DNA of 64,000 nt from Terriglobus roseus (GTDB lineage: Bacteria > Acidobacteriota > Terriglobia > Terriglobales > Acidobacteriaceae), in contig NZ_FNSD01000001.1 of the NCBI RefSeq assembly GCF_900105625.1, positions 868,001 to 932,000 on the forward strand. The letters run 5' to 3'. The translations under genes and the position numbers were made by a program. Shown piece by piece: positions 8,935 through 18,258 of this stretch (position 1 is the first letter of the stretch; every line of letters begins with the position of its first letter). The notes beneath the pieces are model-generated. The model ran no database searches. It was not told the origin of the DNA and saw only the letters and a program-made list of their open reading frames with translations.

Positions 8935-9392
8935 TGGAAGAGCAGAGCAAGATAGTTATCAAACTTCCGGAGGGTATGGTCAAAGGCTATTTGACTGAAG
9001 ATTCCCTGCGGAGTCTCCATACCCCCTCGGCTCATCCCGAGACCGTGATGGTCAAGCTGGCCGAAAACGGAACCGAGAAGGAGATCACGCTGCAGGATGC
9101 CAAAGGCATCTTCTTTGTGAAGGACTTCAACGGCAACGTCGATCATTCTGATCTTCGCTTTCACGATGGAGCGTCACCCGCAGGGTTTCTCTGGGTTCGG
9201 CTTACCTTCCTGGACGGCGAGATCCTGGAAGGCATGGTCAAGAACTCCTGCAAGTTTGTCGTCGCGCAGGGCATCTGGATCACGCCGACCGATCCCACAG
9301 GGAACAACCTGCTGATCTACGCGACCAAGTCGCACCTTCGCCACTTCGAGATACTGGGACTTCGGCAGAAGTCGCAACGCAGGGACGCTTAG
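8934..9392 (+). CDS. Small conserved protein coupled to the sigma-54 activator
   Basis: A 152-residue protein whose ATG overlaps the stop of the activator gene by one base (TAATG), implying translational coupling. No signal peptide or membrane segment is visible. The sequence is beta-rich, with IVIKLPEGMVKGYL, DAKGIFFVKDFNGN and WVRLTFLDGEILEGMV. This resembles, from memory, an Acidobacteriota family of unknown function (DUF6982-like) that looks like a small beta-barrel. Its coupling suggests a role in the same regulatory circuit, for example as a ligand-binding or anti-activator partner that replaces phosphorylation of the receiver. That role is inference. Its TAG stop overlaps the TAA of the convergent epimerase gene. 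Confidence 0.8.
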   Translation: MEEQSKIVIKLPEGMVKGYLTEDSLRSLHTPSAHPETVMVKLAENGTEKEITLQDAKGIFFVKDFNGNVDHSDLRFHDGASPAGFLWVRLTFLDGEILEGMVKNSCKFVVAQGIWITPTDPTGNNLLIYATKSHLRHFEILGLRQKSQRRDA

Positions 9393-10315
9393 TCCCTGCG
9401 CAGCATCTTTTCCAGCCCCTCTTCAAAGCTGACCGAGACACGATAACCTAGCACATCCTGTGCCCGTGAGATATCGGCCACGGAGTGACGAATGTCTCCC
9501 TCGCGCTCAGGCAGATAGTTCGGCCGCCCTTCAAAACCAAGCACGCGGCTGATTGCGTCAAAAGCCTGGTTCAGGGTCACCCGATGGCCCGTCGCGATGT
9601 TGTATACGCCTCCAGACGCCTTCGAAGGCGCCCGTACCGCCAGCAGATTTGCCTGCACGACGTTGTCGACATGGGTGAAGTCGCGACTGGTCTCGCCATC
9701 ACCGAAGATGGTTGGGCACTCGCCGCCGGACATGAGAGAGATGAAACGCGCCAGGACACCCGAATACTGTGAGGATGGATCCTGCCGATCGCCGAAGATA
9801 TTGAAATAGCGCAGTGCGACCGTCTCCAGACCGAAGACCTGGGCATAACTGCTCATGTAGAGCTCACTGGCCACCTTCTGGACTGCATAGGGCGAGACCG
9901 GTTCAGGGATCATGTCTTCGCGCTTGGGCAGCTCGGGGTTGTTGCCATAGGCTGCTGAAGATGCCGCGAACACGAAGCGTTTGACGCCCGCGGTGCGCGC
10001 CGCTTCCAACATCTGCAATGTGCCCTTCAGATTCGGGCCATCGGTGCCAATCGGGTCAGCTACCGACTTCGGAACAGAAGGTATTGCTGCTTCATGGAAG
10101 ACGTAGTCCACGCCACGGCAGGCGGCCATGGTGGCATCGGGATCCTGAACATCGCCCTCAATGAACTCAATGCGATCGCGAAGGCCCGAGAGGTTTTCCA
10201 GGTTACCCGAGCTCAGGTTATCGAACGCTCGAACCTGTGCTCCTTCGGCTGCAAGACTATGCACTAGGTGCGATCCAATGAAGCCCGCCGCACCGGTAAT
10301 TAAAACACGTGACAT
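9389..10315 (-). CDS. NAD-dependent nucleotide-sugar epimerase (WbpP-like extended SDR)
   Basis: About 308 residues from the ATG at 10315, which follows TAGGAGCAGG. An upstream extension to 10402 has no support. The N-terminus MSRVLITGAAGFIGSHLVH is the extended-SDR cofactor motif GxxGxxG. The catalytic Tyr and Lys lie in SPYAVQKVASELY. The segment RYFNIFGDRQDPSSQYSGV is typical of the UDP-GlcNAc/UDP-Glc 4-epimerase group that includes WbpP. The enzyme would interconvert gluco and galacto forms of a UDP sugar for the polysaccharide. Exact substrate is uncertain. It is divergent from the GT2 gene at 10423. Confidence 0.9.
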   Translation of the reverse strand: MSRVLITGAAGFIGSHLVHSLAAEGAQVRAFDNLSSGNLENLSGLRDRIEFIEGDVQDPDATMAACRGVDYVFHEAAIPSVPKSVADPIGTDGPNLKGTLQMLEAARTAGVKRFVFAASSAAYGNNPELPKREDMIPEPVSPYAVQKVASELYMSSYAQVFGLETVALRYFNIFGDRQDPSSQYSGVLARFISLMSGGECPTIFGDGETSRDFTHVDNVVQANLLAVRAPSKASGGVYNIATGHRVTLNQAFDAISRVLGFEGRPNYLPEREGDIRHSVADISRAQDVLGYRVSVSFEEGLEKMLRRD

Positions 10316-10422
10316 CCTGCTCCTATTGGCTCTGTGCGAACACTTGAAACCCAAATACCGGATCACGATACCATCTACCTGCAGTGCGGTGGTATGACGC
10401 ATCCGGGGAATGGAGGAGCATC

Positions 10423-11304
10423 TTGCGCGTCAGCGTTGTTATACCCGCTTACAACGCGGAACCCTATCTCCACGAGTGCCTAAGCAGCGTGCTCACGCAG
10501 ACACATCCCGTCGAAGAAGTGATCGTCATAGACGATGGTTCGACGGATCGCACGCGGAGTATCGCTGAGTCGTTTGGTTCACCGGTTCGCCTGCTGCAGC
10601 AAAAACAGGGTGGCCCCGCACGCGCGCGCAATCTCGGCGTCAAAGAGGCGCGTGGCGAATGGATCGCATTCCTGGATGCAGACGACCTCTGGCTTCCAGA
10701 CAAGGTGAGAAAGCAACTGAGCGCGTTGGCTGCCGCTCCGGAAGCAGTCCTTTGCTACACGGGCCTGCTGGCGCTGAAGCTGGATGGCAGCAGGGTCGCG
10801 GTTCAAGCTCCAAGCCTGTCGCACGTGGATGCCATGTTGTCCTTGACGAACGTGGGCATCCCTCCATCCGCCGTGATGCTCCGTCGCGAGACCCTGTTGC
10901 AGGTGGGCGGCTTCAGCGACGTGCAGAAGGGCTGTGAAGACTGGGATCTCTGGTTCCGCCTTCGCAAAGTCGGCACGTTCTGCATTGTCCCGGAAGCTGA
11001 GACGGTCTATCGCGAGTCGCTGGGTGGGCTAAGCTCCAACGCAGAGCATATGTATCAGGACTTCCTGCGGATGCTCGATCGAGTGCTTCTGGCAGATAAG
11101 CATGGGTGGCAACGCCACGTGTGGCGCCGCCGCATCATGAGCTACCAGCAATACAAGGCAGCCATGACCGCCAGGCATGCAGGTCAATCAGCGATCGAGA
11201 GAAAGTTCCTCGCAGCGTCGCTCGCCACATGGCCTTCGCCGCTGTGGCATCCAGAGCGCTTCGCAGCTTCACTCGTCCATCTGCGTCGATCGCTCACGCG
11301 CTAG
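10423..11304 (+). CDS. Glycosyltransferase family 2 (GT-A fold)
   Basis: About 293 residues. The start is taken as TTG at 10423 because GGAGGAG ends four bases upstream and the core RVSVVIPAYNAEPYLHECL follows at once. GT2 landmarks are VIVIDDGSTDRT, the DxD-type EWIAFLDADDLWLPDK and the acceptor-region GCEDWDLWFRL (the ED motif). It is a single-domain inverting enzyme using a nucleotide sugar and a divalent cation, without membrane helices. It probably acts on the same polysaccharide as the GT4 enzymes. Its TAG stop overlaps the TAG of the convergent secreted-protein gene (11301-11304). Confidence 0.9.
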   Translation: MRVSVVIPAYNAEPYLHECLSSVLTQTHPVEEVIVIDDGSTDRTRSIAESFGSPVRLLQQKQGGPARARNLGVKEARGEWIAFLDADDLWLPDKVRKQLSALAAAPEAVLCYTGLLALKLDGSRVAVQAPSLSHVDAMLSLTNVGIPPSAVMLRRETLLQVGGFSDVQKGCEDWDLWFRLRKVGTFCIVPEAETVYRESLGGLSSNAEHMYQDFLRMLDRVLLADKHGWQRHVWRRRIMSYQQYKAAMTARHAGQSAIERKFLAASLATWPSPLWHPERFAASLVHLRRSLTR

Positions 11305-12326
11305 TGACCGGGACTGATGGGATTCACGCGTCCTGAGTCTGGCAGCAGACGAAACGCTGACTCATCCACGGCTTCGAAATCCTCTGCTTTCAGGAGCGAA
11401 AGCTTATGGAGATCATCGTCACTCCATCGCGAGTCGGGTACGCCGCTGAGGTAGAGCGCCCCGCCATTGTCGGCAAGGATCATGCCGTACTGCTTGAGCG
11501 CCACGGCGATGACACGCGCCTGCGGTGGCAGCTTTTGCACATCGAAGCTTGACCGTAGTCGAAAGCGCTGTCCCAGCGGGGCGTAGTTCGGCGACACCAG
11601 CTTCGAAGCCACATGCCGCGCAGGCCAGACATAGGCTGCCTGCGTCTGGGGCAGGGTGAAGCGAATGGCATGTCTGATCTGGCCTGCTCCGACTTCTTCG
11701 TATCGCACCAGGCCGGGCAGGATCGGCAGTCCCGCAGCGTCAGCCGACGTCTTATGTTCCGGACGGAGAGCATTGCTGGTCAGGTCCACGACGATGCCGG
11801 AGCCGACCTTCCATCCGTCACCCTTACGCTCTGCTGCAAACAACTCGTAGAGCACGCAGCGGCCCTCATCGATCAGCAGGATATGGCGATCTCCCATCCC
11901 CTGCGAGCCACCTTCAACCTTCGGATTCGGCGGGATGGGGTAGGGCACCGCATCGCTCTCATCCGCATAGTCAAAGCTGACCGTCTGCCCCGTCGTACCC
12001 GCGGGGACTTCAGTGATCGGAATACCTGCGATCTCCGACGTTCCGAAGTCGGGATGCACGCCGTGCAGAGGACCGATGCTGTCGATGTAGGACTGTGACT
12101 GAGGGGCCCTGGGCAGCTTGTCGATGCGTGTGTTCCACACATTGTCAGCGGGCAACACTGGACACGGCCCGAAGGATGGCCCGCCAGCGGCGGCCGTGGA
12201 TTGAACCGCCCCAACCGGGCGACTGGCTTGGGGAACAGGCTTCGGCTGAAGAAGCACGTAGACCAGTAGAAGGACGGCTGCGATCACACCAAGGCCAATC
12301 CAGTTCATCTTTCGCTGCGGGGTCAT
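11301..12326 (-). CDS. Membrane-anchored periplasmic protein of unknown function
   Basis: A 341-residue protein with a single N-terminal hydrophobic segment (WIGLGVIAAVLLLVYVLL, about 9-26) and a long extracytoplasmic part. The body contains DNVWNTRIDKLPRAPQSQSY, AAYVWPARHVASK, QYGMILADNGGALYLSG and WSDDDLHKLSLLKAEDFEAV. I recall similar blocks in uncharacterised secreted proteins of Acidobacteriota and Actinobacteria, but know no function. Position among glycan genes suggests a cell-surface role. It is followed 12 bases downstream by the GGDEF gene in the opposite reading order, so the three minus-strand genes 11301-14117 may form one transcript. Confidence 0.8.
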   Translation of the reverse strand: MTPQRKMNWIGLGVIAAVLLLVYVLLQPKPVPQASRPVGAVQSTAAAGGPSFGPCPVLPADNVWNTRIDKLPRAPQSQSYIDSIGPLHGVHPDFGTSEIAGIPITEVPAGTTGQTVSFDYADESDAVPYPIPPNPKVEGGSQGMGDRHILLIDEGRCVLYELFAAERKGDGWKVGSGIVVDLTSNALRPEHKTSADAAGLPILPGLVRYEEVGAGQIRHAIRFTLPQTQAAYVWPARHVASKLVSPNYAPLGQRFRLRSSFDVQKLPPQARVIAVALKQYGMILADNGGALYLSGVPDSRWSDDDLHKLSLLKAEDFEAVDESAFRLLPDSGRVNPISPGH

Positions 12327-14781: not shown

Positions 14782-17241
14782 ATGAGTAATAGGATTTCCT
14801 TCCAACTTGTAGTAGCAGGTGCAGGCCCGGGAGGCCTGGCACCGCTCTTCGCTGCGGCCCGATATGGGAAACTTCCGGAGCTTCTTGCAGGCGGAGTCCT
14901 GGTCGTTGAGCGATCAGCCACCATCGGGGCGGGCTTGCTGGGAAACTACTCGATACCCTCGGATAGTCCGGCGGAAGCCTTTCTGGACTCCATTGAGAAT
15001 TCGTCAGAGCCTGAGCTACGCGAGCTTCTGTCACACCCTGAGGCAAAAGCGCTCGCTGACCTGCGCGGCCAGACCGCTCCGCTGCGTGTGGCAGCAGCGT
15101 TTCTAGCGCTCGCTGCTCAGCGTCTCTGCTCCATGGTGGAGCAGTCGTTGCACAGCGCGGTGCTCCGCGAACACGAAGTGCTTTCGGTTCGCCAAATCAG
15201 CAACCGGCTATGGGCGGTCCATGTGCGGGATCTGCGCACTGGCCGTGAGCACACGTTTCGGAGTCGCTCCGTCCATCTGGCGACGGGTGGGCACCAGCCT
15301 GCTGACCGCCTCCGCACGGAGCGGGTTGGCGATGCTCCTCTTACGCCCCGGTTCTCCGAAAAGCTGATTCAGTCTGGTGAACTATTTGTATGGCACGGCA
15401 CAGATGCAGTGATGGATCGTCTTCGCGACAAACCGCAGCCGCGGATCACGGTCGTCGGCGGATCCACGAGCGCCGGGGCTATCGCAGTACAACTTTTGCG
15501 CCAGACTTCCCTTGCATTCCCAGCGGGTGGTCTCACCCTGCTGCACCGGAGCCCACTTCGTCTGTTCTACGCGTCGGCAGAGGAGGCGAAAGCGGATGGA
15601 TACTACGACTTCAAGTCAGAGGATATCTGCCACATCAGCGGACGCGTCTTCCGCCTGTCCGGCTTCCGATTCGAGGCAAAAGACCTGGTCCGCAACGCTC
15701 TGGGACTTCAAGGGCGTGTGCCCGACCCACGGCTGAAGCTGATCGCACTGAATGGCGACTCAGCCGCCGCGGAGGCAGCTCTGCAGGAAGCAGATCTGAT
15801 CATTGCAGCCATGGGATATCGTCCCCGGATGTGTCCGGTTCTGGATGCGGAAGGAAACGCGATCCCTCTCCACGACCCTGTCTCCGGAGATTGGGCAACC
15901 GTCGATCAGCGTTGCCAGGTAATGACCCGCCAGAAGGAGCCCCTGCGCGGTCTGACCGCCATGGGCCTGGCTGTCGGTCCCGCTGCGAGCCATGCGCTGG
16001 GCGGCGAGAAAGACTACCGCGGCCAGGTAAATAGCCTGTGGCTGTGGCAGAACACGTTGGGACTGCGCGTTGTGGAAGAGGTTCTCAAGCGAACCGCTGA
16101 CACCACGCTGCCTCTTCTGCGCCCTTCAGTACCCGCTCTGAGTCAACACGTAGCTGCGATACAAGCAATCGAAGAGTCGAACACCTACTCAAACTTCGGT
16201 CCCGTGAACACTCGCTTTGAACACGAGGTCGTTGAGTCGATCTTCGACGGTGAAGGTTACTGCGTCACGGCCTGCAATGCAACGCTGGCGCTCATGCTCG
16301 CTATGCGCGATGCGATCGGCGAGACCTCGGCGTCGAAGCGCTACGTGCTGATGCCTTCGTTCACCTTTGCGGCATCCGCACAGGCCGCACTCTGGTGTGG
16401 TTTGACACCCCTGTATTGCGACATCGATCCAGACACCTGGCTTCCTTCACGCGAGAGCGAAGAGCAGTTGCTGCGCGACTACGCGGAGCAGATTGCCGTG
16501 ATTGTTCCCAACGCCACTTTCGGGAACAACCTCGACCTGCAACGGTACGAGGAACTCGTGGACGGTACGGGTATCCCAGTCGTCATCGACGCCGCTGCGT
16601 CACTCGGTTCGCGCAATGATCGAGATGAAGCGTTCGGCAAGGGATCTTCTTTGCCGCTGATCTTCTCCATGCATGCGACGAAGAACTTCGCGACCGGTGA
16701 AGGCGGGTTGTTGTACTGCTCGAAGCCGGACAAAATCGAACGGCTGCGTACCATGGCCTCGTTCGGTTTCGGAGAACGCAGGGTCGCTACGATGCCCGGA
16801 CTGAACGCAAAAATGTCTGAGGTTGCAGCGCTGACCGCAACGCTGCAACTGAAGCAGTTCCCCGCGCTGATGTCAGAGCGAGACAGCATCTCTCGGATGT
16901 ACGCGACGGAACTGGCCGGCAGACTGCAGCGCCAGACGACCCGTGGCCAGCGACAGGCTCGCACGTTTGAGAGCCTCCTGCTTCCCCGAACCCTGGCGCC
17001 TTACCGAGAAGAGATTATGCGGCGGATGCTGCAGCAGGGCGTGACGACTGGCTCCTACTTCAGTCCACACCTGGCCCGGCAACCCTTCCTGCGCGATCGC
17101 TCGATAGTCCCGCCGCTTCCTGTAAGCGACGATATATCGGCACGTATCCTCTCCCTTCCCCTGCATAATGGGATGACTCAGGCCGACGTGACAGCCGTGG
17201 TGGGGGCTCTGTTTGAGACCCTTGAATCGCTTGAATCCTGA
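14782..17241 (+). CDS. FMO-like flavoprotein fused to DegT/DnrJ-type PLP aminotransferase
   Basis: A single 819-residue frame joining two enzymes. Residues 1-440 form a two-dinucleotide flavoprotein: FAD motif GAGPGG (13-18), NADPH-like motif VVGGSTSAG (224-232), and the ATG-type motifs HLATGG (165-170) and AAMGYRP (342-348), as in lysine/ornithine N-hydroxylases and related FMOs. Residues 460-819 are a DegT/DnrJ/EryC1/StrS sugar aminotransferase: ACNATLALMLAM, MPSFTFAASAQAAL, VVIDAAASLG with the PLP-ring Asp (603), and HATKNFATGEGG with the Schiff-base Lys (634). No stop or frameshift separates them. It may aminate a keto-sugar nucleotide and oxidise the nitrogen or a nearby carbon. The substrate is unknown. 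A GT2 gene follows four bases later. Confidence 0.92.
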   Translation: MSNRISFQLVVAGAGPGGLAPLFAAARYGKLPELLAGGVLVVERSATIGAGLLGNYSIPSDSPAEAFLDSIENSSEPELRELLSHPEAKALADLRGQTAPLRVAAAFLALAAQRLCSMVEQSLHSAVLREHEVLSVRQISNRLWAVHVRDLRTGREHTFRSRSVHLATGGHQPADRLRTERVGDAPLTPRFSEKLIQSGELFVWHGTDAVMDRLRDKPQPRITVVGGSTSAGAIAVQLLRQTSLAFPAGGLTLLHRSPLRLFYASAEEAKADGYYDFKSEDICHISGRVFRLSGFRFEAKDLVRNALGLQGRVPDPRLKLIALNGDSAAAEAALQEADLIIAAMGYRPRMCPVLDAEGNAIPLHDPVSGDWATVDQRCQVMTRQKEPLRGLTAMGLAVGPAASHALGGEKDYRGQVNSLWLWQNTLGLRVVEEVLKRTADTTLPLLRPSVPALSQHVAAIQAIEESNTYSNFGPVNTRFEHEVVESIFDGEGYCVTACNATLALMLAMRDAIGETSASKRYVLMPSFTFAASAQAALWCGLTPLYCDIDPDTWLPSRESEEQLLRDYAEQIAVIVPNATFGNNLDLQRYEELVDGTGIPVVIDAAASLGSRNDRDEAFGKGSSLPLIFSMHATKNFATGEGGLLYCSKPDKIERLRTMASFGFGERRVATMPGLNAKMSEVAALTATLQLKQFPALMSERDSISRMYATELAGRLQRQTTRGQRQARTFESLLLPRTLAPYREEIMRRMLQQGVTTGSYFSPHLARQPFLRDRSIVPPLPVSDDISARILSLPLHNGMTQADVTAVVGALFETLESLES

Positions 17242-17244
17242 AAA

Positions 17245-18258
17245 TTGGGTTCAAGTGCAACGTATCGGACATTGAAATCACTCTCAGGTGCAGTGACGAA
17301 CGATCGCAAAGCAGCAGTCGAGCCAGCGGCCACACCAGCAGCTCCTTCGCTGGCGATCGTGATCCCTGTCTACAACGGCAGAAAGCATCTTGCGGAGACG
17401 TTGCAAAGTTGCGTGCAGCAGCTGTGCCCGGCCGATGAGATCATCGTCGTCGAAGACGGTTCGCCGAAATCATCGCGTGACATCGTAGAACTTCTACCCG
17501 GCGTCCGATATGTCGACCAGCCGAATGGCGGCGTCTCCAGCGCGAGGAACCACGGCGCTTCCGTGGCAACCGCTGATTGGATCTGCTTCCTGGATCAGGA
17601 CGATCTGCTTCTTCCCGACCATCTGGAACAGCTTTCCAAAGCGATTCAGAGCGGTGTTCGTGCCGATCTCTTTTACACTCCGCGCGTGGTACTCTCGTGC
17701 GTCGACGGCGTCTGGACCACCCGAGAGTCCCAGTCGCCACCTGCTGCGCGGCATCTCGCGAGGGTGCTTCCGATTCGCTGTCCGTTCCCGCCGAGTGGAA
17801 CCTGTGTGCGGCGATCCGTCTTCGAAGCTGCAGGCGGATTTCGATCAAGATACGACCTTGCCGAAGATTGGGAGTTCTGGCTGCGCCTCAACGCGATGGG
17901 CGCAGTCTTCCATCTGCTGCCTACTCCTACTGTCTGTTACCGCGTACATATGGAGAGCAATAGCCACAGGCCTCTGCCGATTCTGAACGCGAACCTACGG
18001 GTCATCCGGGAGCAGATACTCCCTTCCGTCTTCTTTCTGAAGCGGCTGTGGGTTGGAAAACGACTAATCAGTACGCAGGAGGCCGACGCGGCGATCCTGC
18101 TGCGGCAGATGGGACAGGACGGCGGCCAGCGCCTGCTGTTGCGTTCGATTGTGCGACTGCCACTCGGCAACTGGCGGCGCTACAAGATCGCGGCTCACAT
18201 GCTGACCCATGGCCTGAGAAATGTCTCTCATAAGGACACGTCGCGCTTCCGCGCCTGA
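17245..18258 (+). CDS. Glycosyltransferase family 2
   Basis: A GT2 enzyme of up to 337 residues. The core starts LAIVIPVYNGRKHLAETLQS, followed by EIIVVEDGSPKSSRD, the DxD-type DWICFLDQDDLLLPDH and AEDWEFWLRLNAMG. The frame opens with TTG at 17245, but GTG at 17293, preceded by CAGG, removes a poorly conserved leader and is a good alternative. It follows the flavoprotein-aminotransferase fusion with only three bases between stop and possible start, so they are almost certainly co-transcribed. The sugar made by the fusion may be the donor used here (inference). It ends one base before the convergent gene's stop. Confidence 0.9.
   Translation: MGSSATYRTLKSLSGAVTNDRKAAVEPAATPAAPSLAIVIPVYNGRKHLAETLQSCVQQLCPADEIIVVEDGSPKSSRDIVELLPGVRYVDQPNGGVSSARNHGASVATADWICFLDQDDLLLPDHLEQLSKAIQSGVRADLFYTPRVVLSCVDGVWTTRESQSPPAARHLARVLPIRCPFPPSGTCVRRSVFEAAGGFRSRYDLAEDWEFWLRLNAMGAVFHLLPTPTVCYRVHMESNSHRPLPILNANLRVIREQILPSVFFLKRLWVGKRLISTQEADAAILLRQMGQDGGQRLLLRSIVRLPLGNWRRYKIAAHMLTHGLRNVSHKDTSRFRA

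Follow-up and report, generated by a model that had tools for sequence, protein, structure and literature searches.

A Single-Chain Flavoprotein–DegT Aminotransferase in Terriglobus roseus as a Candidate Enzyme for Amination and N-Oxidation of a Nucleotide Sugar

Introduction

DegT sugar 4-aminotransferases of the DesI and ArnB type are single-domain enzymes. In antibiotic pathways, the amine of a deoxythymidine diphosphate (dTDP)-amino sugar made by a DegT aminotransferase can be oxidized further, either by nitrososynthases of the ORF36/KijD3/RubN8/DnmZ type or by the cytochrome P450 CalE10. These N-oxidases have an acyl-CoA-dehydrogenase fold or are P450s, are separate proteins, and are encoded in antibiotic clusters; N-oxidized sugars are known from a few antibiotics. 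Here, we describe an 819-residue protein encoded at 14782..17241 (+) in a 64,000-nucleotide stretch of Terriglobus roseus DNA (hereafter the window; contig NZ_FNSD01000001.1, positions 868,001 to 932,000), in which an N-terminal flavoprotein is fused to a C-terminal DegT/DnrJ/EryC1/StrS aminotransferase, as seen from the sequence and Pfam. We favor, with modest confidence, the reading that this is a two-step nucleotide-sugar enzyme, in which the DegT half would aminate the sugar and the flavoprotein half would N-oxidize it before glycosyl transfer.

The comparison with these systems is close on one side of the chain and distant on the other. The entire aminotransferase half aligns with DesI (2po3), ArnB (1mdo), and 3ju7-type DegT aminotransferases, and the lysine and aspartate that serve pyridoxal 5′-phosphate (PLP) are present; the matched chains, however, have 377–424 residues, whereas the chain of the window enzyme also contains a flavoprotein. 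As we understand the antibiotic nitrososynthases and CalE10, the window enzyme would share their logic of amination followed by N-oxidation but differ in the type of N-oxidase. Its flavoprotein lacks a match to such a domain, and Pfam showed no acyl-CoA dehydrogenase-type match in the window fusion (E up to 0.1), nor in the 48 relatives when searched up to E 0.001. The flavoprotein half has two dinucleotide-binding motifs, like the SidA/IucD/PvdA N-hydroxylases and the flavin-containing monooxygenases (FMOs). By sequence, however, it lies outside both groups, has a partial Pfam match at threshold level, and has GY(R)P in place of ATGY.

Amino acids, diamines, and xenobiotics make up most of the known substrates of N-hydroxylases and FMOs. 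FrbG, a class B-like flavoprotein, N-oxidizes a nucleotide-activated amine, the cytidine monophosphate (CMP)-linked aminopropylphosphonate of FR-900098 (PMC7347517). FrbG would be the functional precedent, with a phosphonate and not a sugar as its substrate. No PDB match listed for the flavoprotein half bears the FrbG name. An open-access literature search found nothing describing such a flavoprotein–aminotransferase fusion and, among the matches listed, no N-oxidized sugar as a component of a bacterial polysaccharide.

Results and Discussion

The Fused Frame and Its Motifs

The frame 14782–17241 starts with ATG and translates without an internal stop. Residues 1–439 (14782..16098, +) form the flavoprotein half, a putative class B-like monooxygenase dependent on reduced nicotinamide adenine dinucleotide phosphate (NADPH) and flavin adenine dinucleotide (FAD), as judged from Pfam, alignments, and profile comparison. 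Residues 440–819 (16099..17238, +) form the DegT-family PLP aminotransferase half. A preliminary description of this DNA had named GAGPGG, VVGGSTSAG, and ATG motifs in the first half and an intact Lys634 and Asp603 in the second, and all of these were recovered. The FAD-binding motif GAGPGG occupies residues 13–18 (14818..14835, +) and the NADPH-binding motif VVGGSTSAG residues 224–232 (15451..15477, +), with G13, G15, and P16 of the one and G226 and S230 of the other invariant in 48 aligned flavoprotein rows. The same holds for G169 of the ATG motif (residues 167–169) and for G345 and Y346 of AAMGYRP (residues 342–348; 15805..15825, +), which we take to stand where N-hydroxylating monooxygenases have their ATGY motif. 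Asp603 (16588..16590, +) and Lys634 (16681..16683, +), presumably the aspartate facing the pyridine nitrogen of PLP and the Schiff-base lysine, are each invariant in nine aligned aminotransferases.

The 48 flavoprotein halves, of which the window is one row, share 22 invariant columns that include glycines of both dinucleotide motifs. When the eight distant rows are excluded, 63 columns show conservation of 90% or more among 39 near relatives, and the window matches 59 of them. Its aminotransferase departs at 12 of 90 columns invariant across seven partner enzymes, and its terminal branch in the flavoprotein tree is long (1.6 versus a median of 0.75). The window flavoprotein is thus diverged, yet there are no signs of decay in the conserved columns examined.

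The Pairing Recurs, Fused in Both Orders

A whole-protein search covered 200 genomes of the window's order, and loci were picked where both halves matched. Among the matches listed, the two halves stand side by side in the T. roseus genome and in four others (G040, G054, G105, and G120). Across 396 genomes of the window's phylum, the flavoprotein profile alone was positive in three at E 1e-15 or better (T. roseus itself, G000, with G040 and G054), and in all three the aminotransferase lies beside the flavoprotein or is fused to it. G040 appears to be Granulicella tundricola MP5ACTX9, whose plasmid pACIX904 encodes an uninterrupted 900-residue fusion, flavoprotein first (WP_013573235.1), annotated as a DegT aminotransferase only. 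More than 50 extra residues separate its halves, while the window fusion has virtually no linker. A glycosyltransferase gene follows it after 2 nt, and polysaccharide export genes lie nearby. In G054, G105, and G120, the halves are separate genes, adjacent or overlapping, and a gene that by eye is of the glycosyltransferase family 2 (GT2) type adjoins the pair, upstream of it in G120.

Further relatives occur in the order to which Acidisphaera rubrifaciens belongs (Acetobacterales according to NCBI), where the flavoprotein was found in 46 of 395 genomes at E 1e-12 or better; L120 and L121, from which two sequences of the query alignment come, are counted among the 46. These loci were taken with up to 6 kb on each side, some being cut by contig ends, gene starts in the relatives' loci were called within this analysis, and DegT aminotransferases were called with one profile, A2. 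A DegT aminotransferase lies within ∼6 kb of the flavoprotein at 42 of the 46 loci, as a separate gene at 39 and in one frame with it at three (L080, L095, and L118, the last at a contig edge). The aminotransferase comes first in 34 separate pairs and the flavoprotein in five, and the matched domains are at most 167 nt apart in 37 of the 39 (L079, 1.6 kb; L120, 3.8 kb). Many loci are close kin; collapsed at 75% identity, they form 33 groups, 29 of which have the aminotransferase. The four loci with no DegT gene by the A2 profile are L085, L092, L093, and L117. In the first three, a gene for a uridine diphosphate N-acetylglucosamine (UDP-GlcNAc) 2-epimerase, matched by Pfam in each, overlaps the flavoprotein gene (L085:4785-7314 (-), L092:4770-7350 (-), L093:4764-7335 (-)). 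The epimerase replaces the aminotransferase there, so that the partner is again an amino-sugar step, suggesting N-oxidation of a 2-acetamido sugar in this lineage.

A wider phylum sample had the flavoprotein in 12 of 398 genomes, two of them seen before, and a DegT gene is adjacent or fused to it at eight of the ten new loci. Three of these, L135, L136, and L137, hold aminotransferase-first fusions of 822–834 residues; a GT2 gene overlaps the fusion by 4 nt in L135 and L136 and follows it in L137. The reverse order is also that of Sphingomonas parapaucimobilis YK209, with an aminotransferase-first fusion of 830 residues and a 4-nt overlap with a glycosyltransferase gene; we call L135–L137 sphingomonad-type from their grouping with the YK209 row in the tree. 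The other five, L138–L142, have an adjacent DegT gene of another type (A2 score of 118–177 bits versus 373–629 bits for the usual partner), from which the link appears to be to amination as such.

Altogether, the in-frame fusion is present at eight loci besides the window, as the preliminary description had proposed to look for, and several stand beside glycosyltransferase genes. The flavoprotein comes first in the window, G. tundricola, L080, and L118, and the aminotransferase in S. parapaucimobilis, L095, L135, L136, and L137. In a maximum-likelihood tree of the 48 flavoprotein halves, from which L118 is absent, the eight fused rows are spread over at least four positions. All four sphingomonad-type rows group together (100/100). 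L095 sits inside a five-row clade (100/99) and L080 within a ten-row clade (98/97) whose other rows are separate genes, and the window and Granulicella fall, together with two separate-gene loci, in a clade of four rows whose branching is unresolved (100/99). The two domain orders cannot have arisen from fewer than two fusions; some of the remaining cases could be explained by splitting at a later stage. That fusion is repeated and runs in both orders strongly indicates, by established reasoning, that the two enzymes work one after the other on the same molecule, and functional coupling of the flavoprotein to a DegT aminotransferase is well supported. Apparent fusions at L076, L089, L090, L091, L098, L112, L114, L115, and L121 were set aside, their extra length being out-of-frame GC-rich read-in before the flavoprotein start.

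Identity of the Two Halves

Pfam DegT_DnrJ_EryC1 (PF01041) covers residues 456–810 at 232.1 bits (cut-off 19.8, E 1.5e-68, profile positions 7–359 of 360), in agreement with the DegT assignment first made. The nearest solved structure by both sequence and fold is 3ju7, itself titled putative (35% identity, E 8.1e-66, TM score 0.91 of the target); ArnB follows by fold and DesI by sequence. The best NCBIfam profiles, DesI (TIGR04427, 160.4 bits against an equivalog cut-off of 650) and then PseC (152.8 bits against 423.5), score far below their cut-offs. By sequence, this half belongs to the sugar-type DegT enzymes. RmlB, the dTDP-glucose 4,6-dehydratase, is encoded in the window's genome (484.6 bits, cut-off 365.1), which makes a dTDP-4-keto-6-deoxy sugar a plausible substrate.

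Paired FAD and NADPH dinucleotide-binding motifs in one chain are found in class B flavoprotein monooxygenases, but the pair is not decisive because reductases carry both as well. Pfam Lys_Orn_oxgnase (PF13434) gives a weak partial match to residues 116–243 (22.6–25.2 bits, cut-off 21.3). We compared the flavoprotein profile with profiles of 15 of 16 N-hydroxylases, all 8 FMOs, and all 12 thioredoxin reductases, L177 being excluded for its ambiguous frame and each value being a single comparison. It matches the N-hydroxylases with Prob 97.0 (E 9.8e-11, 226 columns) and the FMOs with Prob 97.1 (E 6.4e-11, 183 columns); an unrelated control, the aminotransferase, gave Prob 0.2. For scale, N-hydroxylases against FMOs score 98.0 (E 1.8e-13), N-hydroxylases against thioredoxin reductases 83.0 (E 9.1e-6), and FMOs against thioredoxin reductases 95.8 (E 6.6e-9). 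Searched for N-hydroxylases at E 1e-40, one class had no positive among 58 genomes, and a search across the phylum had 22 positives in 200.

The top match in a PDB sequence-profile search with a 12-row alignment is an N-hydroxylase. A structure model of the full fusion (8-row alignment) has a mean predicted local distance difference test (pLDDT) score of 64.5, with most of the NADPH domain below 50; the flavoprotein half from the Acidisphaera cluster L028 (three rows) was modeled with a mean pLDDT of 55.2 and a poor NADPH part. In Foldseek, this low-confidence L028 model drew N-hydroxylases as 35 of the best 50 PDB matches, many of them repeated SidA entries, with E down to 1.2e-8 and TM of at most 0.45 among those 50. 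DiatB, a flavin-dependent monooxygenase on which our literature search found no paper, heads the list, and reductases occur among the remaining rows. A scan of viral contigs with the flavoprotein alignment returned zero relatives.

We regard the flavoprotein half as a branch of its own among the two-dinucleotide flavoproteins, no curated family covering it whole. The preliminary description had assigned it to the N-hydroxylase/FMO type; the FAD/NADPH-motif flavoprotein stands, and the type comes down to a weak profile similarity in which thioredoxin reductases are nearly equal and to a low-confidence model. We do not claim membership in the N-hydroxylase family. Given the constant partners, N-hydroxylation is the likeliest activity.

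Proposed Chemistry and Competing Readings

In the scheme that we favor, the C-terminal DegT half would transaminate a keto nucleotide sugar, most likely a dTDP-4-keto-6-deoxyhexose, using PLP and an amino donor. The N-terminal half, as a distant class B-like FAD/NADPH monooxygenase, would then oxidize the new amine, giving a hydroxylamino sugar nucleotide, or a nitroso, oxime, or nitro sugar if it acts repeatedly. The GT2 encoded next door would transfer the N-oxidized sugar to an acceptor, which may be a surface polysaccharide. We infer that the flavoprotein acts as a monooxygenase and not as a reductase or dehydrogenase, that nitrogen is the site of oxidation, which sugar is involved, and in what order the steps occur.

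Several observations weigh against this scheme, and most of them bear on the flavoprotein. Only six of the 48 members match Lys_Orn_oxgnase, whereas 37 match the generic Pyr_redox_2 (E 0.001 or better), and NCBIfam yields stray partial matches alone, for example, to malate:quinone oxidoreductase. The thioredoxin reductase profile is matched with Prob 95.8 (E 8.0e-9, 173 columns), so that the comparison places the half in the two-dinucleotide superfamily and hardly separates monooxygenase from reductase. With the 48-row alignment, a thioredoxin reductase outranks the first N-hydroxylase in the PDB profile search, and both structure models are too poor for reading an interface or active-site geometry. 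Five relatives (L085, L092, L093, L143, and L144) have no DegT gene within ∼6 kb, and L117, on its 5.5-kb contig, is a sixth. Distant flavoprotein relatives belong to nonribosomal peptide synthetase/polyketide synthase (NRPS/PKS) clusters or to clusters of other kinds, and the PLP enzymes next to them carry a class I/II annotation. Finally, the window GT2 is 27–30% identical to five module GT2s (G105, G054, YK209, L135, and L136) and has no reported match to that of Granulicella, while it is 32% identical to the window's other GT2.

The poor fit to curated families, with Pyr_redox_2 as the commonest match and thioredoxin reductases nearly as close as N-hydroxylases, would suit an NAD(P)H-dependent oxidoreductase that works on carbon ahead of the transamination, for instance by producing or modifying the keto sugar, with no N–O bond formed. 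The existence of both gene orders also leaves room for this, since order cannot tell which step comes first. We consider this rather unlikely: the keto sugars of DegT enzymes are normally supplied by dehydratases, one of which this genome encodes; the thioredoxin reductase profile fits slightly less well, and over fewer columns, than those of the N-hydroxylases and FMOs; and most of the fold matches, albeit from a poor model, are to N-hydroxylases. The flavoprotein also pairs with the other DegT type and with UDP-GlcNAc 2-epimerase, and the feature common to these partners is an amino sugar, not a ketone. It is improbable, in our estimate, that the two halves share a pathway whose substrate is a small-molecule or lipid-linked amine instead of a polysaccharide nucleotide sugar. 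Some modules are indeed short islands of a fusion and a GT2 amid mostly unrelated genes (e.g., L038 and L135), and the distant relatives in NRPS/PKS and other non-polysaccharide clusters fit such a substrate; the aminotransferase, however, is of the sugar-nucleotide type, glycosyltransferases, flippases, Wzy_C, acyltransferases, and methyltransferases are among the neighbors examined, and polysaccharide genes border the loci of the window and Granulicella. A sequencing or assembly artifact joining two genes, which the preliminary description had named as a possible refutation, recalls the separate adjacent genes of the closest relatives, G054 and G105, but has a negligible chance of being correct because independent fusions exist elsewhere: they run uninterrupted in G. 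tundricola, S. parapaucimobilis, and further genomes, and eight fused frames, when translated, contain no stops.

The amination and N-oxidation scheme can be extended, and we offer the extension tentatively, as something that may well not hold in full: sugar-nucleotide N-oxygenases would have a third lineage, class B-like and founded by this flavoprotein, and N-oxidized amino sugars (hydroxylamino, oxime, or nitro) would be regular, overlooked units of surface polysaccharides in Acidobacteriota, Acetobacterales, and sphingomonads. Such sugars might possibly be joined by N–O glycosidic bonds or be methylated or acylated by the methyltransferases and acyltransferases encoded next to some of the pairs. 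If true, one could test for N-oxidized sugars in the surface glycans of bacteria that are common in soil and on plants, the fusion would serve as a biocatalyst that makes hydroxylamino or nitro sugars with a single chain, and a role would be found for a flavoprotein family on which most of the annotated records examined say nothing informative.

Genomic Surroundings of the Window Fusion

A GT2 gene directly downstream had been noted in the preliminary description, and it is there: it starts with TTG at 17245, 3 nt past the fusion stop (17245..18258, +; Glycos_transf_2 E 9e-30), and is likely to share a transcript with the fusion. A conserved, dedicated GT2 partner was considered and is not supported, as the GT2s beside the modules differ. 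The polysaccharide setting described at the outset holds as well, with a gap. The first 11.3 kb of the window encode three group-1 glycosyltransferases, a UDP-glucose dehydrogenase, an NAD-dependent sugar epimerase/dehydratase (9389..10402, -; Pfam Epimerase E 2.7e-61), and a second GT2 (10384..11304, +; Pfam Glycos_transf_2 E 5e-38). In the 20 kb upstream of the window, Pfam identifies an exosortase and a Polysacc_synt flippase, and by eye we read a tetratricopeptide repeat (TPR) protein, EpsI, Wza, Wzc, an AAA ATPase, a tyrosine kinase, a sugar transferase, and a GT2 as an exopolysaccharide locus; the window adjoins this exosortase-type polysaccharide locus. Other genes occupy ∼3.5 kb between the polysaccharide genes and the fusion: a minus-strand open reading frame (ORF) with no Pfam match, a GGDEF protein, a PCYCGC protein, and a Uma2-like ORF that scores under the cut-off. 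The minus-strand ORF at 11301-12326 (-), whose protein has no Pfam match, encodes a protein 55% identical over 337 residues to that of L187:4247-5299 (-), both genes lying on the minus strand within or beside the polysaccharide locus.

Neighbors of the Relatives

For the relatives, 25 of 170 called genes at 31 representative Acetobacterales loci, chosen mostly as likely operon mates, were scanned with Pfam. They include a flippase (L079), Wzy_C and a group-1 glycosyltransferase (both L088), acyltransferase 3 (L080, L082, L084, and L118), a phosphomannomutase-type gene (L095), and RmlC- and RmlD-type genes directly upstream of the pair in L100. A gene for an S-adenosylmethionine (SAM) methyltransferase overlaps the flavoprotein gene in L091, L096, L111, and L113, hinting at O- or N-methylation of the oxidized amine. 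FkbM was matched by Pfam in L076 and by a local profile only in L077, L089, L098, L120, and L121; an F5/F8 type C protein (L114) and a DUF7002 protein (L115) were also seen. Five scanned neighbors gave no Pfam match (in L081, L086, and L087 and one each in L082 and L100). The one in L100, L100:3555-4436 (-), resembles by eye part of the Acidisphaera cluster protein L028:2213-3955 and is possibly a glycosyltransferase. Separately, L139–L142 show, at ∼2.2–7.3 kb, a compact row of the flavoprotein, the other-type DegT, a flippase-like protein (Pfam in L139), and a GT2.

Among the distant relatives, the Priestia, Erwinia, and Rahnella loci were considered for a phosphonate pathway like that of FR-900098. 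The idea arose from an N-acetyltransferase, a nucleotidyltransferase–PLP fusion, and a DXR paralogue at distant-relative loci. It was dropped when phosphoenolpyruvate (PEP) mutase (PF13714) was not found on the four plasmids with distant relatives, including that of Shinella, in a search confined to those plasmids (controls matched 9/14), and remains a lead on substrate type only. At L042:8914-14598 and L040:8920-12046, the distant relatives stand beside nucleotidyltransferase–PLP aminotransferase fusions, where the product is possibly a nucleotide-activated hydroxamate. The Priestia locus also encodes an AAC(3)-like N-acetyltransferase and the DXR paralogue. At the Shinella locus, L039:8932-11509, the relative is annotated as SidA/IucD/PvdA and sits beside a class I/II-fold PLP enzyme in an NRPS/PKS cluster.

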